Of a DNA stretch of 13,567 bases, positions 2,510 through 13,567 are shown in pieces (position 1 is the stretch's first letter; every line of letters starts with the position of its first letter). Source of the stretch: Gracilibacteraceae bacterium (GTDB taxonomy: Bacteria; Bacillota; Desulfitobacteriia; Desulfitobacteriales; Syntrophobotulaceae); assembly GCA_031274335.1 (NCBI GenBank), contig JAISQG010000096.1:1-13567 (forward strand), written 5' to 3'. Under the pieces are notes generated by a model that saw only the letters and a list, made by a program, of their open reading frames with translations, was not told where the DNA came from and ran no database searches. The translations under genes were made by a program, and so were the position numbers.

Positions 2510-3679
2510 TCAGCCGGGAAACCTGGCATCTCCCAGATCCAGAAAATCCCTGAGTGCGTCAATCAAGGCTTCAACTTCCTCCACGGTGTTTTGCCCGCAA
2601 AAACTGACCCGGAGAGCACTTGCGGTTTCTGTTGGCTGAAGGCCATAAGACTCCAGCACCTGAGGCCCTTTGTGCTCATAATTCGATTTGCAGGCAGCGC
2701 CGTTGGATACATATATGCCCCTGTTGCTGAGATGTTTGACCGAAATATCGCTGCCTATTCCCGGCAGCGAAAAATTCACGATATGAGGCGCCCCCCGGCG
2801 GCTGGAATTGATCACCGCCTCCGGCACCCGCTCCGCCAGCAGATCCAGGCAATAGTCCCTGAGCCGTGTCATCTGCGCCGTGTCGGCCGCCATGTTGGCC
2901 ATCGTAATCCGCACGGCCTCCCCAAACGCCGCGATCAGCGGCGCGCTCTCCGTCCCGGGCCTCAGTCCCCGTTCCTGGCCGCCGCCAAACTGCAGGGCAA
3001 ACATCTTGGTTTTTTTCTTGACATACAAAGCGCCGCAACCTTTGACGCCGTGAATCTTATGGGCGCTGACTGTAATCAAATCCGCCCCCAGATCCGCCGC
3101 CGTAAAGGGCAGCTTGCCAAAACCCTGCACGGCGTCACAGTGGAGGAGCGCCGGTGATTTTTTGCGGTCGATGAGCTCACGAATGGCGCGGATCGGGAAA
3201 ATAGTACCAATCTCGTTGTTGACCATCATCACGCTGACCAGCACTGTTTTTTCGCTGATAGCCGCCGCCATGGCCTCCATGTCCAATTCGCCGCCCTTCA
3301 CCGGGATATAGTCTATATGCCACCCCTGCCGCCGCCAAATGCGAATTGCCTTGGTCACGGCGGGATGCTCCACCGCCGTGGTGATAATGCGGCTGCCCTG
3401 CCGATCTCGGGCGGAGCAGCTGCCAAAAATCGCCAAATTGTCCGACTCGGTGCCGCCGGAGGTAAAATATATTTCATCCGGGCGCACTCCCAACGCCGCC
3501 GCCACCTGTTTTCGGGCCAGGGTGATCGCCGCTTTGCTTTCCCGCCCCAGCGAGTGCTGCGACGAGGGGTTGCCGTAGGCGTCCGTCATATGGCGCACAG
3601 CCAAGGCCACCGCTTCGGGATACGGTTTGGTAGTGGCGCTGTTATCCAGATAGATTATGCCTTTTTTTTCAGTTTGCAT
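2510..3679 (-). CDS. Cysteine desulfurase (NifS/IscS-like, class V aminotransferase fold)
   Basis: A 389-residue PLP enzyme predicted to remove sulfur from L-cysteine, leaving alanine and an enzyme persulfide. Family motifs are in order: YLDNSATT (10-17), GGTESDN (75-81), His105 (stacks on PLP), NNEIGT (154-159), HCDAVQ (180-185), the PLP-binding SAHKIHG with Lys208, GLRPGTES (238-245), and the catalytic-cysteine loop NGAACKSN with Cys330. Length is normal for the family. Its ATG lies inside the end of the upstream TetR gene (11-base overlap), so the two are almost certainly co-transcribed and probably translationally coupled. No IscU/NifU scaffold is next to it, so it is not a standard isc operon. 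It may supply sulfur for the Fe-S clusters, or for sulfuration of the Mo cofactor, of the divergent operon; that role is inferred from position only. Confidence 0.93.
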   Translation of the reverse strand: MQTEKKGIIYLDNSATTKPYPEAVALAVRHMTDAYGNPSSQHSLGRESKAAITLARKQVAAALGVRPDEIYFTSGGTESDNLAIFGSCSARDRQGSRIITTAVEHPAVTKAIRIWRRQGWHIDYIPVKGGELDMEAMAAAISEKTVLVSVMMVNNEIGTIFPIRAIRELIDRKKSPALLHCDAVQGFGKLPFTAADLGADLITVSAHKIHGVKGCGALYVKKKTKMFALQFGGGQERGLRPGTESAPLIAAFGEAVRITMANMAADTAQMTRLRDYCLDLLAERVPEAVINSSRRGAPHIVNFSLPGIGSDISVKHLSNRGIYVSNGAACKSNYEHKGPQVLESYGLQPTETASALRVSFCGQNTVEEVEALIDALRDFLDLGDARFPG

Positions 3680-4316
3680 ATTTTTCCACCATCATTTGCA
3701 TAAATTCATGGGACATGTTGCGAAATCGCTCATCGTTGCATCTCACATGATTTGGTGTATTATTACCCGTGGAATTGAGCAGCCAGCCGCAGCAACTATT
3801 CGTAAAATAATCCGCCAAAAATCGGATGGCCTCTATGGGCATCCGGCGCCGCCCCAGAAAATAAATGATGTCCTTCTCTATTTGCCGGGAATAAATGGCA
3901 TAAATATAACGAACCAGATTGTTCTGCCCGCCTATGTTCAAAACATTGGCATAGTATTTGTCGTTTTCAAACAGATAGCCGCCAAAAACATGCCAGAACA
4001 TGCCCAATTCCAAATTGTCCTGCGGGCTGCGCATATCCAGATAAAAGGGCTTGCTGTTATATTTTTCTTGCATCAGTCCGGTTTTACAAATCAATTTTTC
4101 TTCGGGGAAAACTTTCTTCAACCGGGTGCCCAGCTCTGACCGAAAAATCCAAACAACCAAATCCTCTTTGTCTAAAAAATGGTAATAGAAGGTGTTCTTA
4201 TTTATTTTGCTGGCAGCTATAATATCCTTAACGCTTATTTTATAGACAGGGTTCTTCATGGCGAGTTCTTTGAAGCAATCAGCAATCAAATTCTTGGTCA
4301 AAACAGCCTGGGCCAT
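3669..4316 (-). CDS. TetR/AcrR-family transcriptional regulator (Firmicutes-type C-terminus)
   Basis: Predicted 215-residue DNA-binding regulator. The N-terminal helix-turn-helix is recognisable at residues about 27-47, with ISVKDIIAAS followed by KNTFYYHF, the typical TetR recognition helix and Tyr-Tyr-His-Phe end, then DKEDLV. The C-terminal part resembles the TetR_C family of Firmicutes regulators such as DhaS, with the conserved pattern around NILNIGGQN-like and YIYAIYSRQIEKD. I chose ATG 4316, because GGGAGG lies eight bases upstream of it; an in-frame ATG at 4340 would add eight residues but lacks a good site. The gene overlaps the desulfurase and diverges from the MFS-led operon, the usual layout for a local regulator. 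Base composition is more AT-rich than its neighbours. The ligand is unknown. DhaS-type proteins can act as co-activators, so the sign of control is open. Confidence 0.85.
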   Translation of the reverse strand: MAQAVLTKNLIADCFKELAMKNPVYKISVKDIIAASKINKNTFYYHFLDKEDLVVWIFRSELGTRLKKVFPEEKLICKTGLMQEKYNSKPFYLDMRSPQDNLELGMFWHVFGGYLFENDKYYANVLNIGGQNNLVRYIYAIYSRQIEKDIIYFLGRRRMPIEAIRFLADYFTNSCCGWLLNSTGNNTPNHVRCNDERFRNMSHEFMQMMVEKYAN

Positions 4317-4386
4317 AAACACACCTCCCGCAGCGTTCAACAGCCAATCCTTTTCATGATAATATAAAACAGAAAATTTATAAATA

Positions 4387-4606: not shown

Positions 4607-4642
4607 GGAAGTTTCAAAAATTGAATAAAGGAGTTGTATGAA

Positions 4643-5902
4643 ATGAACAGCGAAAAGATCAGCGTTCGCCACTGGATTACCATTATTGCGTCCTTTTGCC
4701 TTTCCGCGTCTATTGCCTTTATTACCACGGGTTTCAGCTTTCTTATCGTTCCCGTCACCGGCGACTTGGGCTTCGAAGTGGCCAAATTTGCCCTGTATTT
4801 CACCTTTTTCATGGCCTTCGGCCTGATCGGACTGCCCTTATGGGCCAATATCTACAAACGCATCGGCGTAAAATGGGGCGTCGTCATCTCCGGCGCGCTC
4901 ACGACGGTCTTTGTTGTAGGATTGTCTTTCTGCCACAGTCTGCTGTCGTTTTATGTGATGGGCGCGGGGATTGGCCTGTCGTTCCAGGGAGCGACGGTTA
5001 TGCCGGCGGTCATTCTGATCAACACCTGGTTTATCAAGAAAAAAGGCATGATTCTAGGCATAGTCATGACCGGTTCCGGCGTGGGCGGCGCTGTCTTGAG
5101 TTACAATTTCCCGAAATTCTTAGTGACCAACACTTGGCAGAGCGCGTATCTGCTGCTGGCGGCATGTTTTTGCATCCTCTGTGTGCCGGTGGCTCTTTTT
5201 CTGATCAAAAACAAACCCGCGGACTGCGGTCTGCAAATGTATGGCTGGGAGGAAGCTCAGGCTGCGCAGGCGGCTCAGGGCGGAACCGGCGACGCTACCA
5301 AGCAGGAAGCCGCGGGCATCACTTTGAAAGAAGCCTGGAAAACACCCCATCTTTATCTATTGTACGGCGGGGTGTTTGTTTTGAGCGCCGTCATGTCCTT
5401 CAGCCAATATGTGCCGGCGCATCTGACGGCCATCGGCGTGGAGGTGCAAACCCTGGCTATCCTGACGACGATTCTGATGGTGGCCAACATTGTTTCCAAA
5501 ATTATCATGGGTACCTTGAATGACAGACTGGGTGTCAACACCACTTTGATTTTAGTGATGGCGCTGGGCCTGGCTTCGATGTTTTTCTTCCCCCGGGCCG
5601 GGATATTCGGCCTGGCCTTGATTGCCGTATGTTTGTTCCCCTTCGGAGCCTGTTTCAGCACGGTGCTGCCGCCGCTGCAGACGGGGGCTATTTTCGGCAA
5701 CAAGGATTATACAGCCATCTGGGGTATCATGGGCACGGCCAGCACTTTGGGCACAGCGGTGGGACCGCCGATTTGGGGAGCTATTTTTGACGCCAATAAG
5801 TCCTATGTTCCGGGCATGTATTTCAGCCCCATCCTGATTGTAATCGGCACGGTCATGTGCGTCGTTGCCGTCAAAACAAAAAGCAAATTATACCCGAAAT
5901 AA
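4643..5902 (+). CDS. MFS transporter, OFA-like (organic-anion type)
   Basis: Predicted 419-residue inner-membrane transporter of the major facilitator superfamily with about twelve hydrophobic segments. The two halves are joined by a hydrophilic loop at roughly residues 195-232, rich in Ala, Gln and Gly. The sequence resembles the oxalate/formate-antiporter-like group: an N-terminal WITIIASF segment, GLIGLPLWANIYKRIGVKWG between helices 2 and 3, and GSGVGGAVLS in helix 5. Such proteins often carry carboxylates or other small organic acids. I chose ATG 4643, with AAAGGAG at 4627-4633; an in-frame TTG at 4634 abuts that site and is too close to be used. ATG AAA TGA at 4638-4646 overlaps the start out of frame. 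The gene heads the operon, 42 bases before the anchor subunit, which suggests it imports that operon's substrate. Confidence 0.85.
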   Translation: MNSEKISVRHWITIIASFCLSASIAFITTGFSFLIVPVTGDLGFEVAKFALYFTFFMAFGLIGLPLWANIYKRIGVKWGVVISGALTTVFVVGLSFCHSLLSFYVMGAGIGLSFQGATVMPAVILINTWFIKKKGMILGIVMTGSGVGGAVLSYNFPKFLVTNTWQSAYLLLAACFCILCVPVALFLIKNKPADCGLQMYGWEEAQAAQAAQGGTGDATKQEAAGITLKEAWKTPHLYLLYGGVFVLSAVMSFSQYVPAHLTAIGVEVQTLAILTTILMVANIVSKIIMGTLNDRLGVNTTLILVMALGLASMFFFPRAGIFGLALIAVCLFPFGACFSTVLPPLQTGAIFGNKDYTAIWGIMGTASTLGTAVGPPIWGAIFDANKSYVPGMYFSPILIVIGTVMCVVAVKTKSKLYPK

Positions 5903-5944
5903 TTTCATTGCCAAAATTTGCCAAATTGGAAAGGAGAAAGAAAA

Positions 5945-6814
5945 ATGAATGAGTTTGCATTACAAATCGATTATAAGGAACAAAAAGAATGGTCAAAGCC
6001 GCCGATGTGGTTGGAAATGGCTTTGGGCGCTGTGAGCGGCGGCCTCTTCATTTTTTCGCTGGTTTTTGATTTTGCCCTGGGCGCCATCATAGCGCTGCTG
6101 ACTATGCTAATCGGGAAAGGAGGACTCTTGCTGGCGGATCTGGGCCGGCCGGAACGCTTTATCAAAGTGCTGGCCAGGCCGAAAGAATCTTGGATCAGCA
6201 AGGGGTCGTGGGGGCTTGTCCTCTTCGCGGCCGCGGCGGCCGCGGTGGTGGCGCCGCTGGTGATTCCCGGGTGGCCGGCGTGGGGGGCTGGTGTCGGGAA
6301 AATACTGGCGGCGACAGCCGGGGGGCTGGCCGCCTTTCTCATAGTATATGACGGACTGTTCCTGAGCGACTCCAAAGGCGTGTCCTTTTGGGACAACGGC
6401 GTTTTGCCGCTGGTCTTTGGTTTCAGCGCTCTGGTGGGTGGTCTGGGCGCCCTGATGGTGCTGGCGCCTATCGGCGGCATGGCCCTGAGTTCTTCCGTCC
6501 TGTCCGTGGCCAACAACTGTGTTCTCTTGGCGGCGGCGGCCAGCCTGTTCGCCTATATCAACTCGGCCGCTAACGGAGAAGGCGGGGCCAAGCGTTCCGC
6601 CGCGCGGGTGCTCAAAGGCGATCTGGCGCAGGTGTTCTGGGTGGGCACGGTCGGCGCCGGTTTGGGCGCTCCCCTCCTGATCAGCGCCATTGGCGCGGCT
6701 GGCGCTGCGGTGCCGGCGATTTGCTGGGCCGTATCCGGTCTCTTGGAAATTACCGGCGTAATCGCCACCCGTTATCTCATTCTGAACGCCGGCGTTTATT
6801 CACCGGTACTCTGA
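5945..6814 (+). CDS. NrfD/DmsC-like membrane anchor subunit of Mo oxidoreductase
   Basis: Predicted 289-residue polytopic membrane protein with about eight hydrophobic segments. It has the marks of the NrfD/PsrC/DmsC anchor family: a hydrophobic helix pair beginning at PPMWLEMALG (19-28), then GKGGLLLADLGRPERF (57-72) and SWISKGSW (82-89), where the conserved D-x-G-R-P motif sits near the quinone-binding region in characterised members. Its role would be to exchange electrons between the quinone pool and the ferredoxin subunit. Start at ATG 5945 is preceded by GGAAAGGAG; an upstream in-frame TTG at 5918 is less likely. The catalytic-subunit gene starts 29 bases after the stop. The gene precedes the catalytic and Fe-S genes, the reverse of the common A-B-C order. 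Confidence 0.88.
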   Translation: MNEFALQIDYKEQKEWSKPPMWLEMALGAVSGGLFIFSLVFDFALGAIIALLTMLIGKGGLLLADLGRPERFIKVLARPKESWISKGSWGLVLFAAAAAAVVAPLVIPGWPAWGAGVGKILAATAGGLAAFLIVYDGLFLSDSKGVSFWDNGVLPLVFGFSALVGGLGALMVLAPIGGMALSSSVLSVANNCVLLAAAASLFAYINSAANGEGGAKRSAARVLKGDLAQVFWVGTVGAGLGAPLLISAIGAAGAAVPAICWAVSGLLEITGVIATRYLILNAGVYSPVL

Positions 6815-6843
6815 GGAAACACGGAAAGGAAAGGAGATAAAAA

Positions 6844-9579
6844 ATGGCAGCAATAAAAGAAGCCGCAATCAAAGAAGATGTATGGATACCTTCCGCCTGT
6901 AATATGTGTTTTAATGCCTGCGCCATCAGAGTGCACAAAGTTGACGGCGTGGTGGTAAAAATAGAGGGCAACCCCGCCAGTCCTGTCGGCGGCGGTCATG
7001 TATGCGGCAAAGGCGCTTCCGGCCTCATGCAGCTCTACGATCCGAATCGGATTACCAAACCGATGAAACGCACGAACCCGGTCAAAGGCATCGACATTGA
7101 TCCCGGCTGGCAGGAGATTTCCTGGGAAGAAGCCTACACTCTGGCTGCCGACAAACTGAAAGCCGCCCGGGCGGAAAACCCCAAATATATCCTCTCCACC
7201 GGAATGGTCACCAACAACGCTAATTTGCTGCCCTTCATTTGGTTCGCCTCGCCGGCTTTAGGCGGCGGCTACTGGTGCGCCGATATTTGCGGAGCTTCCA
7301 TTCACGGCTGGTACGAACGCTTTGGCGCTACAGGCAATTTGGCGCCGGACTATGAGCTATGTAAATACCTGCTCCAATTCGGCACCCAGGCCGGCACGGC
7401 CACCCGCCACGGCTTCAACATGTCCGTTCGAAAGTGCGCCAACGGCAGGGAAAACGGGCTCAAGCTGGTCAGCGTTGACCCCCACATGAGTACCAGTGCC
7501 GAAAAATCAGATCTTTGGCTGCCCATCAAACCGGGCACGGACGGCGCATTGGCTATGGCGATCGCCCATGTTCTCGTCCGGGAATTGGGAATCTACGATG
7601 CCGAGTATCTGAAAAAATTCACCAACGCCGCCGATCTGGTCGATGTGAGCACCGGAATGTGTGTGCGCAAGGAAATAAAAGAGACCAAAGCAGCCAAACC
7701 GGCTGAAAGCAAGAAGGATGCGCCTGAAAAAATAGCGGACAAGGACATCGGCGCCGTGCTCAAAGGCATCGTGGAGACGGATAATGCCGATCAAACCAAG
7801 CACGGGCATCCCTATGTCTGGGATCTGGCCACCGGCCAGGCCCGCGACATCTATGACGATGTGGCGGATAAAGCCCTGCTGGGCACCTATACCTTTGAAG
7901 GCAAGACCGTCAAGCCCTCCTTCCAGGTCTATGTCGATCATCTGAAAAGCTACACGCCGGAATGGGCGGCTGTCATCACGGATATCCCGGCGGAGCGGAT
8001 TCGCCAGGTTGCCAAGGAATTAGGCGAGGCGGCCTCGATCGGCAGCACCATCACCATCGGCGGCAAGTCCTATCCTTACCGCCCGGTAGCCGTCGATTGC
8101 TTTTCCGGCGCCACCCGGCATAAACACGCTTATCTGACGATCTGGGCGATTCTTCACTTGAATGTCATTTTGGGCTCATTCAACGTCCCCGGCGGCATGG
8201 TCGGGTTTGCGGTCAAGGCGGACGGGCACCCGGAAACTCATCAGCCCAGTTGGGCGCCGGGCGTCTATGAGCGGGACAATATGGTTGACTGCACCTCTCT
8301 CTTTTATGTAAGGAACCGTTCCTGTTATGCGGACTACGAGAAAAAAGTCGCTTACCGGGATGAATTCGATTGGGGCCTTTTCAGCCTGCAGCCGACCAAT
8401 GTGGGCGGCGACGGACATTTTGTCTATTCCCAGCAGCTCCATCCCGAGCAGTACAAACAAAAACACCGGGCCAAGGTACTCTTTTCCTACGCCAGCAACC
8501 CTCTGAAAAACTGGGGCAACCACGCCGAAATGGCGGAATTTTTGAAAACATTTGAATATATCATCATGATCGACATCTACAAGAGCGATTCTTCGTACTT
8601 CGCTGATCTTCTTCTGCCGGAGTGCTGTTACCTGGAACGCCTGGACAGCGTGCCCAATGCCATGTTTAATCATCATACCGTGGGTGACCTGAATACCCCC
8701 TGGACCATTTCCATCCGCCAGCCGGTCGTTCAGGCCCGGGACAACTGCCCCGGCGGCATGGACATTTTTATCGAGCTGGCTGACCGCGTAGGCGTTTTGC
8801 CCATGTACAACTCTGTGATGAGCGCCTCTTACCGCCTGAATGAAGCCAATAAACTTGATCCTTCCAAAAAGTACTCCTATGCCGAAATTCTCGATCGCGT
8901 TTACAAGTCCTGGTGCGGTGAGGACAAGGGCTTGGAATGGTTCAAGAAAAACGGCGTCCTCACCTGGGAACGCAAACCGGAAGAACTTTACTATTACCCG
9001 AACAACCCCGGGCGCATCCCCCTCTATATGGACTACCACCTCAAACTGAAAAAAGAAGTGGAGGCCGAAGTGAAGCGGGTGGGGATCGAATGGGAACAGC
9101 TGGAAGATTATTTGCCGCTGCCTTCCTGGGAACCTTGTCTGGACTACGAAGAGGAACATCCGGGCTATGATCTTTGGCCGATTTATTACACGAACGCCCT
9201 CAATGTTGATACCTGGGGTCAGATTAACCCCTGGATCAATGAGATCAACGCCAGCGAGCCCTACGGCTACACGATTGAAATCAATACCCAGACAGCCAAG
9301 GCCAGGGGCCTGAAAACCGGTGATGATGTCGTTTTGCTCGGAACCTCCGGTTATGAGGTTGAAGGGCGTCTCATGTGCGTACAAGGCATCCACCCGAAGA
9401 CGCTGGCTGTGGGCGGCGGGTGCTGGGATATCAAATCCAAATATCTTCATGCCCGGGACCGCGGCGTGGCGATCAATAATCTGTTTGAAGTGGGCGACCC
9501 CAAGCGTTTGGATCATTTGTCCGCCGCCTATGATCAGTGCATCCGCGTCAAATTGGTGAAAAAGGAGGCGATAGCGTGA
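6844..9579 (+). CDS. Molybdopterin (DMSO reductase superfamily) catalytic subunit, cytoplasmic type
   Basis: A 911-residue enzyme binding Mo (or W)-bis-MGD and one [4Fe-4S] cluster. The cluster motif is Cys19, Cys22, Cys26 and Cys54, followed by GKG and the family's YDPNRITKPMKR segment. The likely metal ligand is Cys149 in ADICGASIHGW, at the position of the Cys ligand in acetylene hydratase. Cofactor-binding segments (VSVDPHMS, LWLPIKPGTDGALAMAIAHVL, and DLLLPECCYLERLD) and the C-terminal barrel (AKARGLKTGDDVVLLG) are all present. No twin-arginine signal is present, so the enzyme should stay in the cytoplasm. A Lys/Ala/Glu-rich insertion occupies about residues 276-300. Ribosome binding site AAAGGAG precedes ATG. 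No TorD-type chaperone gene is adjacent. Relatives lacking the signal include pyrogallol transhydroxylase, acetylene hydratase and phenylacetyl-CoA:acceptor oxidoreductase, but I cannot assign the substrate. Confidence 0.93.
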   Translation: MAAIKEAAIKEDVWIPSACNMCFNACAIRVHKVDGVVVKIEGNPASPVGGGHVCGKGASGLMQLYDPNRITKPMKRTNPVKGIDIDPGWQEISWEEAYTLAADKLKAARAENPKYILSTGMVTNNANLLPFIWFASPALGGGYWCADICGASIHGWYERFGATGNLAPDYELCKYLLQFGTQAGTATRHGFNMSVRKCANGRENGLKLVSVDPHMSTSAEKSDLWLPIKPGTDGALAMAIAHVLVRELGIYDAEYLKKFTNAADLVDVSTGMCVRKEIKETKAAKPAESKKDAPEKIADKDIGAVLKGIVETDNADQTKHGHPYVWDLATGQARDIYDDVADKALLGTYTFEGKTVKPSFQVYVDHLKSYTPEWAAVITDIPAERIRQVAKELGEAASIGSTITIGGKSYPYRPVAVDCFSGATRHKHAYLTIWAILHLNVILGSFNVPGGMVGFAVKADGHPETHQPSWAPGVYERDNMVDCTSLFYVRNRSCYADYEKKVAYRDEFDWGLFSLQPTNVGGDGHFVYSQQLHPEQYKQKHRAKVLFSYASNPLKNWGNHAEMAEFLKTFEYIIMIDIYKSDSSYFADLLLPECCYLERLDSVPNAMFNHHTVGDLNTPWTISIRQPVVQARDNCPGGMDIFIELADRVGVLPMYNSVMSASYRLNEANKLDPSKKYSYAEILDRVYKSWCGEDKGLEWFKKNGVLTWERKPEELYYYPNNPGRIPLYMDYHLKLKKEVEAEVKRVGIEWEQLEDYLPLPSWEPCLDYEEEHPGYDLWPIYYTNALNVDTWGQINPWINEINASEPYGYTIEINTQTAKARGLKTGDDVVLLGTSGYEVEGRLMCVQGIHPKTLAVGGGCWDIKSKYLHARDRGVAINNLFEVGDPKRLDHLSAAYDQCIRVKLVKKEAIA

Positions 9580-10166
9580 GTTACGGGATGGTAATTGACC
9601 TGAAAAGATGTGTCGGCTGCGGAGCCTGCGCGACGATATGCAAAGCGGAAAACGGCACGCCGCCCGGCGTTACGCGTTCCAAAGTGATGAAAGCAGAAAA
9701 GGGTGAATTTCCAAATGTTACCAGAATAAGTTTGCCCCTGCTGTGCATGCATTGTGAACATCCATCCTGCGTAAAGGTTTGCCCCACCGGCGCCACGGCC
9801 AAAGGGCCGGATGGCATTGTGACCGTGGACAAAAAAGTCTGCATCGGCTGCCGGGCCTGCATGACCGCATGCCCTTACGGGGCCCGCTATTTCCGGGAAG
9901 ACACGGATGGTTATTTCGGCGAAACACTGACCCCGTATGAGAGCGTCAAGTATGAGGATATGCCCAGAGGCGTCATCGACAAATGCAATTTCTGTGCGGA
10001 AACCCGTTTGAGCAAAGGGCTGGAACCGGCTTGCGTGCAGACCTGCATCACGGAGGCGCGGCATTTCGGCACCAGGGAAGAGCTGGCGCTTCTGATCGCG
10101 CAGCGCAAAGGCTACCAGCTGCGGCCTGATTTGGGGACCGACCCGTCAGTTTATTATTTGCCATGA
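9576..10166 (+). CDS. Four-cluster [4Fe-4S] ferredoxin-like subunit (DmsB/PsrB/NrfC type)
   Basis: A 196-residue electron-transfer subunit with all sixteen cysteines of the four-cluster family: 12/15/18/22, 57/60/65/69, 89/92/95/99 and 137/140/153/157. Each group of four is expected to mix into interleaved cubane clusters that pass electrons between the catalytic subunit and the membrane anchor. There is no signal peptide, matching the catalytic subunit. I place the start at GTG 9576, which overlaps the catalytic gene's stop by four bases (GTGA) with AAAGGAGG at 9561-9568. A longer in-frame reading would start inside the upstream gene without a good site. The overlap argues for coupled, stoichiometric synthesis. 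The family call is firm; the electron direction is not known. Confidence 0.95.
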   Translation: MSYGMVIDLKRCVGCGACATICKAENGTPPGVTRSKVMKAEKGEFPNVTRISLPLLCMHCEHPSCVKVCPTGATAKGPDGIVTVDKKVCIGCRACMTACPYGARYFREDTDGYFGETLTPYESVKYEDMPRGVIDKCNFCAETRLSKGLEPACVQTCITEARHFGTREELALLIAQRKGYQLRPDLGTDPSVYYLP

Positions 10167-10193
10167 CTAGCTATATGAAAGCGAGGAATAGAC

Positions 10194-10955
10194 ATGGGAA
10201 GATTGGACGGTAAAGTAGCTATAGTGACAGGATCCGCCGGCGGCCAGGGCGAAGCGGAAGCCAGGGTTTTCGCCCGCGAAGGCGCAAGCGTTGTCCTGAC
10301 AGATGTACAGGAAGAAAAAGTCGCTGCTGTTGCGGCGGATATAGTCAAGGCCGGCGGTAAAGCGGTCTCTTTTAAGCATGACGTGTCTTCCGATGAGGAA
10401 TGGCAGGGCATTGTGGCCAAGACGTTGGAATTGTACGGCAAAATTGACGTTCTGATGAATAACGCCGGCACCGGTGGCTGGGGTGGCAGAATTGCTAAGT
10501 TCAATCCGGAAGAATGGGATTTTGTGTTAAAAATCAATTTGATGGGTTCGGTTTACGGCATGAAAAACGTCCTGCCTCTCATGCAGGAAGCGGGCCGGGG
10601 ATCGGTAATCAACGTGGCGTCCCTCTCTTCGCTTTCCGCGATGGGAGGGTCCTCACCCTATACCGCTTCCAAGGCGGCCATTCGCTATCTGACCAAAGGC
10701 GCCGCCTTGGAGTACGCGCCATACAATGTGCGGGTCAACGCGGTGGTGCCCGGCATTATTCGCAGCGCCATGACTATTCCCATTTTGGACAACCCGGAGA
10801 GTCCTGTCTATCAAGAATGGCGCAAAAAAATCAAAACCCCGCGTTTCGGCATGCCCGAAGATATAGCCTATGCGGTGTTATATTTGGCTTCTGATGAATC
10901 GGAACATGTAACAGGCATCGAGCTGCCGGTTGACGGCGGTTATATGCTGGTTTAA
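10194..10955 (+). CDS. Short-chain dehydrogenase/reductase (SDR, classical)
   Basis: A 253-residue NAD(P)-dependent oxidoreductase acting on an alcohol/carbonyl pair. The cofactor motif TGSAGGQG (12-19) is clear, and Asp37 after the second strand favours NAD over NADP. NNAG is at 89-92, and the catalytic set is Asn115, Ser143, Tyr156 and Lys160 (YTASK). The C-terminal part ends with the family pattern DGGYMLV. Length is typical for classical SDRs such as hydroxysteroid or cyclic-alcohol dehydrogenases, but the substrate cannot be read from the sequence. AGCGAGGA precedes the ATG. The gene is 27 bases after the Fe-S subunit and 15 bases before the next dehydrogenase's chosen start, with no terminator between, so it belongs to the operon. 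Its likely job is to prepare or finish the substrate of the Mo enzyme. Confidence 0.93.
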   Translation: MGRLDGKVAIVTGSAGGQGEAEARVFAREGASVVLTDVQEEKVAAVAADIVKAGGKAVSFKHDVSSDEEWQGIVAKTLELYGKIDVLMNNAGTGGWGGRIAKFNPEEWDFVLKINLMGSVYGMKNVLPLMQEAGRGSVINVASLSSLSAMGGSSPYTASKAAIRYLTKGAALEYAPYNVRVNAVVPGIIRSAMTIPILDNPESPVYQEWRKKIKTPRFGMPEDIAYAVLYLASDESEHVTGIELPVDGGYMLV

Positions 10956-10970
10956 ATGAAAGGACCTGGC

Positions 10971-11990
10971 ATGAAAGCTGTAAGAATTGAAGGTGTCAAA
11001 CGTGTAGGAGTGGCCGATGTCCCCGTCCCGAATACGGATGGTGGCAAAAAAGCCTTGATTAAAGTGGCCTATGCCGGTATCTGCGCCTCCGACATGACCA
11101 CCTGGTTTCGCGGCAGCCCGGCCATCACGCTTGGACATGAATTCAGCGGTACCATCGTTGATCCCGGAAATTCCATGGAATTTAAGAAAGGCGACCGGGT
11201 CACCGCTTCCGAGATCAATTCCTGTTTTGAATGTGATTCCTGCCGTCGGGGTTATCCCAATCTATGTTCGCAGGTGTTTGCCACAGCTACAGGGATTATG
11301 ACGGACGGCGGCATAGCTGAATATGTGGCGGTGCCGACCAATATGCTCTTCAAACTCCCGGATAATGTGAGCTTTTTGGAGGGCGCCTTGGTTGAGCCGG
11401 CGGCCGTAGCGCTGCGCGGGCTGCATTTGGCCGGGTTTAAGGCCGGAGATAAAGTGCTGGTGACCGGTTGCGGCCCGATCGGTATTTTTGCGGCTGCCAA
11501 CGCCAAAGCTCTGGGGGCCTCTTACGTGGCTATGACGGAAGTTTCCGAGGAGCGCATGGCATTTCCCCGCAGTCTGCCTTATGTGGACGGACTTTTTAAC
11601 GCTCTTGACCCGGAATTGGACAAAAAACTGAAAGATGCCAGCGAAACCGGTTTTGATGTGGCGATTGAAGCCACCGGTTTCACAGCGGCCACTCAAACCG
11701 CCATCCGCGCCCTGCGGGTCGGCGGCCATCTGGGAATCCTTGGCGTGCATGAGCGGGATATGGTCTTTAACATCCCTCAACTCATGTTCAAATCCATCAA
11801 GATTTCCGGCGATTTTTATTCCCTGCCGTCGGATTTTGAAGAAGTAATCAGTTTGATGGCCTCCGGAAAACTGGACATCAAAAACTGCGCCACCTCCATT
11901 ATCCCCTTCGCCGACGCACAGAAACAGTTTGAAACAAATGCCGCCGGCAAGAGCCTGGACATCAAAGTAATCCTGGATCCCAGTTCCTAA
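10971..11990 (+). CDS. Zinc-dependent medium-chain alcohol dehydrogenase
   Basis: A 339-residue MDR-family dehydrogenase, closest in type to the sorbitol/threonine dehydrogenase group. Catalytic zinc residues are Cys38, His56 and Glu57 (GHEFSG), with Glu141 in VEPAAVALRG as a further candidate ligand. The structural zinc set is Cys85, Cys88, Cys91 and Cys99. The Rossmann motif is GCGPIG (165-170). I chose ATG 10971, because AAAGGA lies a few bases upstream. The alternative ATG at 10956 starts directly after the SDR stop, lacks a site and would swallow the real one. This is the last gene of the operon. With the SDR it gives two dehydrogenases of different families in one unit, suggesting successive oxidations or an epimerisation through a ketone. 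Substrate unknown. Confidence 0.92.
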   Translation: MKAVRIEGVKRVGVADVPVPNTDGGKKALIKVAYAGICASDMTTWFRGSPAITLGHEFSGTIVDPGNSMEFKKGDRVTASEINSCFECDSCRRGYPNLCSQVFATATGIMTDGGIAEYVAVPTNMLFKLPDNVSFLEGALVEPAAVALRGLHLAGFKAGDKVLVTGCGPIGIFAAANAKALGASYVAMTEVSEERMAFPRSLPYVDGLFNALDPELDKKLKDASETGFDVAIEATGFTAATQTAIRALRVGGHLGILGVHERDMVFNIPQLMFKSIKISGDFYSLPSDFEEVISLMASGKLDIKNCATSIIPFADAQKQFETNAAGKSLDIKVILDPSS

Positions 11991-12641: not shown

Positions 12642-12655
12642 AAGGGGAAATAGCT

Positions 12656-13075
12656 ATGACAGACGAAGAAAAATTCGATGGCTTCAAACAAAAGCTCATC
12701 GACGACAACGAAAAGCAGTACGGTGAAGAAATCCGCGCCAAATACGGCGATGATACCGTGGGTCGCTCCAACGCCAAGCTGAAAGGCGCAACCAAAGAGC
12801 AATACGCCGAAATGGAGCGGCTCACTGCCGAACTGAACGACACTCTGAAAGCGGCGTTCGAGCAGGGCGACCCGGCGAGCGAACTCGCCCAAAAAGCCTG
12901 CGAACTGCACAAGCGCTGGCTCTGCTTCTATTGGGACAGTTACAGCAAGGAAGCCCATCTCGGAGTGTCGCAGATATACGTCGATGACCCACGCTTCGCG
13001 GCGCACTACGACAAAATCGCGCCCGGATGCGCAGTGTTTCTGCGGGATGCCGTGAAAGTGTTCTGCGAAAAATAA
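12656..13075 (+). CDS. TipAS-like ligand (antibiotic)-binding domain protein
   Basis: A 139-residue protein matching the TipAS antibiotic-recognition domain. It opens with TDEEKFDGFKQKLIDDNEKQYGEEIRAKYGDD and contains the helical block around CELHKRWLCFYWDSYSKEAHLG and the end segment YDKIAPGCAVFLRDAVKVFCEK. In Streptomyces TipA, the same domain is also made alone from an internal start, about 144 residues long, and sequesters thiopeptides. Here ATG 12656 has AAAGGGG (12641-12647) eight bases upstream, so the domain may still be made by itself although the upstream MerR part is damaged. A frame open from TTG 12638 is the remains of the fused gene. Without a DNA-binding half it could only bind ligand, not regulate. 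It may simply be part of a dying gene. Confidence 0.75.
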   Translation: MTDEEKFDGFKQKLIDDNEKQYGEEIRAKYGDDTVGRSNAKLKGATKEQYAEMERLTAELNDTLKAAFEQGDPASELAQKACELHKRWLCFYWDSYSKEAHLGVSQIYVDDPRFAAHYDKIAPGCAVFLRDAVKVFCEK

Positions 13076-13260: not shown

Positions 13261-13567
13261 TCAATTTCGCAGTCCCAGCCGGCGCAGCTTGCGGTAAAGC
13301 GTGGTGCGCGGCATCCCCAGAGCCTCGGCGGCTAGGCGCACATTATTGTCGGCGGCGCGCAGGGCATTGGTTATAGCGTTTTTTTCCAACTCGTCCAGCG
13401 CTGACACTGCCCGCTCCGCTCCCGTCAAGTCCTCCGCCCCCCGGGCGAAAACCTGCTCCGGCAGATCGCACACCTCGATCACCCCGTCTTGCGCGCTGAC
13501 TGCCGCATAGAGCAGAACGTTCTCCAGTTGGCGCACATTGCCTGGCCAGGTGTATTTTTCCAAGAGA
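13261..13567 (-). CDS. Sigma-54-dependent activator, C-terminal part (partial, runs off the window)
   Basis: About 100 C-terminal residues of an NtrC/NifA-class enhancer-binding protein. The last part of the AAA+ domain is marked by YTWPGNVRQLENVLLYA, the usual WPGNVREL motif. A variable linker follows, then a Fis-type helix-turn-helix at the end (NAITNALRAADNNVRLAAEALGMPRTTLYRKLRRLGL). The 5' part, with the Walker motifs and sensor domain, lies beyond 13567, so the signal it senses is unknown. I saw no -24/-12 sigma-54 promoter in the window, so its targets are probably elsewhere. Confidence 0.93.
   Translation of the reverse strand, partial: LLEKYTWPGNVRQLENVLLYAAVSAQDGVIEVCDLPEQVFARGAEDLTGAERAVSALDELEKNAITNALRAADNNVRLAAEALGMPRTTLYRKLRRLGLRN

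Follow-up and report, generated by a model that had tools for sequence, protein, structure and literature searches.

The stretch of DNA analysed here, referred to as the window, spans 13,567 nucleotides of contig JAISQG010000096.1 of a Gracilibacteraceae bacterium (Bacillota; assembly GCA_031274335.1). It carries a module of six open reading frames (ORFs) on the + strand which encode a transporter, a three-part molybdenum (Mo) complex and two dehydrogenases and which probably make up an anaerobic pathway, so far unstudied, for the respiratory use of a hydroxylated organic compound taken up by the cell. The first gene (4643-5902) codes for a transporter of the major facilitator superfamily (MFS; PF07690) of the monocarboxylate transporter (MCT)/oxalate-formate (OFA) type. 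It is followed by genes encoding an NrfD/PsrC-type membrane anchor with eight hydrophobic segments (5945-6814; PF03916, 64.6 bits), a catalytic Mo-bis(molybdopterin guanine dinucleotide) (bis-MGD) subunit of 911 amino acids (6844-9579; PF04879, PF00384 and PF01568, the Fe4S4, Molybdopterin and Molydop_binding domains) and a four-cluster Fe–S electron-transfer subunit similar to DsrO, ArrB and NrfC (9576-10166; PF13247; 172.6 bits with the DsrO model against a cut-off of 200). The last two genes encode a short-chain dehydrogenase/reductase (SDR; 10194-10955; PF13561) and a Zn-dependent alcohol/polyol dehydrogenase (ADH) of the medium-chain dehydrogenase/reductase (MDR) type (10956-11990; PF08240/PF00107). 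All six proteins matched Pfam families above the curated cut-offs. Along the module the intergenic gaps amount to 42, 29, -4, 27 and 0 bases; the gap of -4 is a GTGA overlap, in which the GTG start of the Fe–S gene at 9576 overlaps the stop of the Mo gene. AGGAG sites were found upstream of the first four starts (MFS, NrfD, Mo and Fe–S), and the ATG at 4643 is the most likely start of the MFS gene, the position 4634 in the ORF listing being a TTG.

The domain families of the Mo subunit, together with the partner genes for the Fe–S and NrfD proteins, place it in the bis-MGD (dimethyl sulfoxide (DMSO) reductase) superfamily with an NrfD anchor. The alignment identified C19, C22, C26 and C54 as the Fe4S4 cysteines and C149 as the probable Mo ligand; with the ligand read from this alignment, the Mo, four-cluster Fe–S and NrfD genes form a gene set of the Psr/Phs type. 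The Mo subunit contained neither a twin-arginine translocation (TAT) motif ahead of the first Fe4S4 cysteine nor a hydrophobic segment, and between its listed ORF start and the preceding stop there is no further start codon. A predicted structural model had a predicted local distance difference test score (pLDDT) of 87.7 and a predicted template modelling score (pTM) of 0.90. A charged insert of 36 residues, rich in Lys, Glu and Ala (residues 282-317; 7687-7794, + strand), was modelled with a pLDDT below 50. None of the 37 other homologs in the alignment has it, not even one that is 74% identical. Of 24 NCBIfam models that matched the Mo subunit, none reached its cut-off. The best family models were PhsA (253.4 bits, cut-off 694) and ArrA (174 bits, cut-off 1600), the best solved structures were PsrA and ArrA, and the fold is nearest to polysulfide and arsenate reductases.

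Among NCBIfam models, the one for an L-lactate MFS transporter gave the best score with the transporter, 120.9 bits against a cut-off of 320. The PDB contained only two matches, an L-lactate transporter and MCT1; the protein is probably a carboxylate importer. The SDR has intact motifs (TGSAGGQG, NNAG and YTASK), and Asp37 suggests that it uses NAD(H). It exceeded the cut-off of the glucose 1-dehydrogenase subfamily model (236.8 versus 215 bits), and hydroxysteroid and butanediol dehydrogenases are near to it. The ADH has the GHE motif, the structural-zinc cysteines and GCGPIG, and is near scyllo-inosose 3-dehydrogenase (IolM), threonine, sorbitol and butanediol dehydrogenases, with no model over its cut-off. 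A substrate of the quinate/shikimate type was considered and found to be a weak candidate: the SDR stayed far below the cut-offs of hydroxycyclohexanecarboxylate dehydrogenase models, and the open literature searched yielded nothing on it. In plasmid searches, two SDR relatives at 45% were found, and the Mo subunit had distant relatives only, none of the 550 records reaching 60% identity.

The original prediction had described six genes in one direction with small gaps or overlaps, and all six ORFs, which lie at the coordinates given there, as well as their packing were confirmed. Also supported are its inward-facing, membrane-anchored Mo complex, its OFA-like importer, which is of the MCT/OFA type, and its two dehydrogenases of different families, both of the secondary-alcohol type. 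The link to quinones and a dehydroxylating function, which it suggested as well, are putative. That the genes are not a standard set for DMSO, thiosulfate, polysulfide or nitrate respiration is borne out by the missed NCBIfam cut-offs and by the position of the Mo subunit in a separate clade.

This clade comprises 38 rows of a 102-row tree (Shimodaira–Hasegawa-like approximate likelihood ratio test, 100), of which at least two duplicate other rows in it. Its members are metagenomic sequences, Dehalobacter sp. DCM, Gracilibacteraceae and Peptococcaceae metagenome-assembled genomes (MAGs) and a subclade of 13 rows from Eggerthellaceae/Coriobacteriales. In this tree PhsA is placed on the side of the clade, and DmsA, FdhF and NapA are placed outside. 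Two neighbouring groups of 7 and 16 rows contain Nitrospinota, Myxococcota, Rokuibacteriota, Chloroflexota, Pseudomonadota, some Bacillota and others. The phylogenetic and structural placement proposed in the original prediction thus put the Mo subunit outside any characterised clade that could be identified. Each of the residues T187, R188, H189, D418, S421 and R425 is conserved in 37 or all 38 of these rows; some rows of the neighbouring groups share one of them (H189 in 8 of 23 rows, D418 in 5, R188 in 3 and S421 in 1), and DmsA has R425. TAT motifs were confined to the Eggerthellaceae/Coriobacteriales subclade, with 13 rows showing one; the 25 others (one of which is N-terminally cut) showed none. 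Therefore, unexported members are the rule outside this subclade.

In their C-terminal part, the relatives in Gordonibacter pamelaeae, Eggerthella sinensis and Enteroscipio are 41-44% identical, with E values around 1e-150, and the next-best matches in these organisms are far below (best E 1e-46). At 16 Eggerthellaceae/Coriobacteriales loci, whose neighbour families were named from one representative each, an Fe–S gene was always present, accompanied by NrfD (9), GntR (9), Band_7 (9), FdhD (7) and a delta-subunit-type chaperone (4). The Eggerthellaceae relatives (L049-L062, L170, L171 and L175) have TAT motifs and are partly located beside Band_7/SPFH, GntR, FdhD and NrfD genes. Among 62 loci of the neighbouring type (L063-L126 without L068 and L108; 19 were sampled in the tree), a UbiD homolog was found in 12; in 10 of these it is no more than 1 kb away from the Mo gene, sharing its strand in 6 cases and lying on the opposite one in 4. 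TctC homologs were found in 10 of the loci, a thiamine pyrophosphate (TPP) enzyme in 11 and DctM homologs in 6. L066, L077, L089, L090, L092 and other loci of L063-L126 represent uncharacterised environmental bis-MGD/Fe–S/NrfD groups, several with two Mo copies, and some of these loci adjoin UbiD decarboxylases or carboxylate transporters. Contigs L189 and L190 also carry Mo genes. A gene for a protein of the nitrogenase component 1 type (PF00148, 212.6 bits; L005:1487-2536, G000:C269) lies near a piece of a bis-MGD gene elsewhere in the genome to which the window belongs.

The Mo ortholog is rare. Of 82 genomes in the class, 4 contained it at E 1e-120, and of 398 genomes in a phylum-wide sample 2 did, the own genome being counted in both cases; the second match in the phylum (39%) shares the start of its protein sequence with L105, a member of one of the neighbouring groups and not of the window's clade. 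Four congeners (83-95% complete) were searched. G001, G002 and G004 gave no match to the Mo gene, and G003, a Gracilibacteraceae MAG of the same genus, carries it on contig C126 (the same DNA as L047 and L037) in the order divergent TetR, NrfD, Mo, Fe–S, MFS, SDR and ADH, so that the MFS gene has moved compared with the window. Identities are 47% for TetR, 52% for NrfD, 54% for Mo, 45-47% for SDR and 41% for ADH. Own copies aside, the SDR of this operon is the best match to the window SDR (219.9 bits, next 168.5; 7 genomes) and its ADH the best match to the window ADH (241.5 bits, next 169.8; 61 genomes); the observation is therefore more than chance. Among 118 loci with a Mo homolog over 300 bits, many of them short or overlapping and with short own-genome loci that show part of the window set, only the G003 stretch had SDR and ADH matches jointly within 5 kb. 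A lone distant SDR match was found in L044, L078 and L125, and a lone ADH match at the Dehalobacter locus (L010, L039). In Dehalobacter sp. DCM, the NrfD protein is 55% identical, a distant MDR (24%) is encoded beside the complex and Hdr-like genes, as read from ORF starts, lie further down; in the Peptococcaceae MAG, FdhD is encoded beside the Mo complex and no SDR or ADH match was present in 16 kb. The original prediction had named absence of the dehydrogenases from the operon in relatives as evidence against it, and this applies in part: SDR and ADH are kept in the sole congener in which the Mo gene was found, but the pair is missing beside the complexes of Dehalobacter sp. DCM and the Peptococcaceae MAG, and the dehydrogenases are not part of the neighbourhood of the wider Mo family. 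Congener G004 has ADH-like and SDR-like genes about 760 bases apart (C56:11071-13567), as judged from coordinates only.

Taken together, we tentatively favour, with somewhat less than even confidence, a TetR-controlled catabolic and respiratory module for one hydroxylated compound, which combines import, NAD-linked oxidation and quinol-fed reduction at Mo. The MCT-type MFS protein would import a hydroxylated organic compound, most likely a carboxylate. With NAD(H) as cofactor, SDR and Zn-MDR would convert secondary alcohols of this compound to ketones and back, and in the pathway they would oxidise one or two such alcohols. The cytoplasm-facing, Psr-like complex (Mo, Fe–S and NrfD) may then reduce the activated intermediate, with electrons flowing from menaquinol via NrfD and the Fe–S protein to the Mo subunit; the likeliest chemistry at Mo would be removal of a hydroxyl or a related C–O or C=C reduction. 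The matches of MFS, SDR and ADH and the UbiD, TctC, TPP enzyme and DctM neighbours point to hydroxylated organic acids or aromatics as substrate class, naming none. This reading is favoured by the relation to reductases, the cytoplasmic placement with an importer and the co-inherited dehydrogenases. Gene content, operon packing, the joint occurrence of all six gene types and the regulator type in a second species, the missing export signal and the family placement were observed directly, and the substrate class, the order of the steps, the reductive direction and the link to quinone are inferred from them. A more specific version, which we regard as doubtful, is that an anchored bis-MGD reductase of an uncharacterised family, facing the cytoplasm, uses an imported hydroxy-acid, pre-oxidised by the two NAD dehydrogenases to a keto or enediol form, as internal electron acceptor and removes an aromatic or non-aromatic hydroxyl, with NADH from the dehydrogenases feeding the quinol behind this reduction; if true, this would be a third architecture of organic-substrate respiration, with one compound as both donor and acceptor.

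Several observations weigh against the favoured reading. To our knowledge, the clade of the Mo subunit has no characterised member, so that the reductive direction is tentative. Not one of the 8 rows compared as catechol dehydroxylases shows any of the six residues typical of the clade. Among the genomes searched, the full set is present in only two, and of the three further Bacillota genomes with the complex, two lack an adjoining SDR-ADH pair. The MFS proteins of the window and of G003 are of the same MCT type but only 27% identical over part of their length, so a common substrate is not assured. Finally, the MAG of the window, which is 67% complete, yielded no more than fragments and one marginal match for menaquinone genes: UbiA was partial and below the cut-off, being over it in G003, G011 and G023, and PF02621 was found in one of four genomes, the own one, with 28 bits (cut-off 26). 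As a whole, the earlier interpretation is a fair hypothesis: complex, importer, dehydrogenase types and non-standard set stood, and it gained new support from the set kept in a second species and from the distinct clade, but the dehydrogenases proved to lie outside the neighbourhood of the wider family.

The alternative that survives best, and that we consider unlikely, is the oxidative direction, in which the Mo enzyme would oxidise or hydroxylate the imported compound with water, electrons would pass via NrfD to quinone, and SDR and ADH would oxidise the resulting alcohols. Such a pairing of a Mo enzyme with an SDR alcohol dehydrogenase is known from EbdABC and 1-phenylethanol dehydrogenase. 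However, ethylbenzene dehydrogenase is an oxidative type II enzyme with a heme b subunit, in place of which the window encodes NrfD; an export signal is missing, and the Mo subunit is nearer to Psr/Arr than to type II enzymes, with 2ivf ranking 25th in the fold search and the EbdA model giving 34.4 bits, far below its cut-off of 2000. Acetylene hydratase, a non-redox hydratase without partner subunits, is 20% identical to the Mo subunit.

Somewhat less probable is a catechol or phenol dehydroxylase proper, which would strip a plant phenolic, once imported, of an aromatic hydroxyl, the side chain being tailored by the dehydrogenases. In the excerpts of the published descriptions, the Eggerthella type (Dadh, Hcdh and Cadh) consists of a Mo subunit, an Fe–S subunit and a membrane anchor (PMC11887054, PMC7028382) and is TAT-exported (PMC7028382). 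The Gordonibacter type (Dodh and Eadh) is cytoplasmic with an MFS neighbour (PMC12771579, PMC7028382) and has two subunits and no anchor, and these excerpts do not mention an SDR/MDR pair (PMC11887054, PMC12771579, PMC7028382). As far as the excerpts go, the module resembles the former in having Mo, Fe–S and anchor subunits and the latter in its cytoplasmic Mo enzyme and MFS importer. It differs from the Eggerthella type in the lack of a TAT motif and in size, the Eggerthella enzymes being larger, from the Gordonibacter type in the NrfD anchor gene and the SDR/MDR pair, and from both in clade. The dehydroxylase rows were identified by context, not by accession: for the Eggerthella type (L173, L174) by tandem Mo and Fe–S genes and catalytic ORFs of 973-1048 amino acids, with a TAT motif in two of three, and for the Gordonibacter type (L162, L164, L166-L168) by ORFs of 762-862 amino acids without TAT motif, with MFS genes nearby in L166 and L167. 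These rows fell elsewhere in the 102-row tree, and in a 39-row tree the approximately unbiased (AU) test rejected one clade of the window family and 8 context-identified rows (p = 4e-6), a grouping chosen after the first tree was seen. Furthermore, all five Gordonibacter-type rows are gapped at the second Fe4S4 cysteine. Membership among the catechol dehydroxylases, which had been raised by the many Eggerthellaceae hits, was rejected by the AU test and by the gap to the next Eggerthellaceae matches.

A sulfur or arsenic oxyanion reductase complex, with dehydrogenases and transporter loosely associated, would fit the best family models and solved structures, but is improbable. As a plain assignment it was rejected, the PhsA and ArrA cut-offs having been missed, and it is kept here as a rival. 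Unlike PsrABC/PhsABC, the window enzyme is unexported (the PhsA reference has a TAT signal), forms a clade of its own and is accompanied by MFS, SDR and ADH; unlike ArrAB, it has an NrfD anchor gene and no export signal. Moreover, SDR and ADH stay with the complex in G003. A last alternative, which is very unlikely, regards the Mo complex as a unit for general electron entry or as an electron sink, with the dehydrogenases as a separate sugar-alcohol route on a shared promoter. The complexes without the pair in Dehalobacter sp. DCM and the Peptococcaceae MAG and the gene pair of G004 would speak for it, but two species that have diverged to 54% identity in Mo, 45% in SDR and 41% in ADH both keep TetR, NrfD, Mo, Fe–S, MFS, SDR and ADH as a group.

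By the tests run, the module works like a Psr-type complex joined to the cytoplasmic importer logic of the Gordonibacter type and is a member of neither. No prior description of such a module was found in the open literature searched, which is no claim that none is in print. Mo-dependent dehydroxylases decide how anaerobes handle phenolics of plants and hosts, and the literature considered concerns few actinobacterial groups; judging from the module, Bacillota may follow a similar logic that relies on an enzyme of a different branch and on built-in dehydrogenases. It is a bounded set of six genes plus a regulator and marks a Mo-enzyme clade without an identified characterised member, with relatives of about 41-46% in gut Eggerthellaceae (Gordonibacter, Eggerthella and Enteroscipio).

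Upstream of the module, a divergent gene (3669-4340, - strand) encodes a TetR-family protein with a DhaS-like N-terminus (PF00440/PF14278; DhaS model below cut-off). Since a 47% identical divergent TetR adjoins the same operon in G003, it is the likely regulator of the module. Inverted repeats are present between the TetR and MFS genes, and a pattern search for the word TTTTCAGSC gave intergenic positions for one of four matches in the window and for both matches in L037. Promoter-like sites (10, shuffled 7.8) and terminator-like sites (17, shuffled 13.4) were near chance numbers, and an Rfam scan gave no match above the gathering score. Downstream of the module, positions 12653-13075 encode a protein with a TipAS antibiotic-recognition domain, the scanned ORF being without the DNA-binding part, and 13261-13566 the C-terminal end of a sigma-54-type regulator (DhaR/PrdR-like) that is cut by the contig end.

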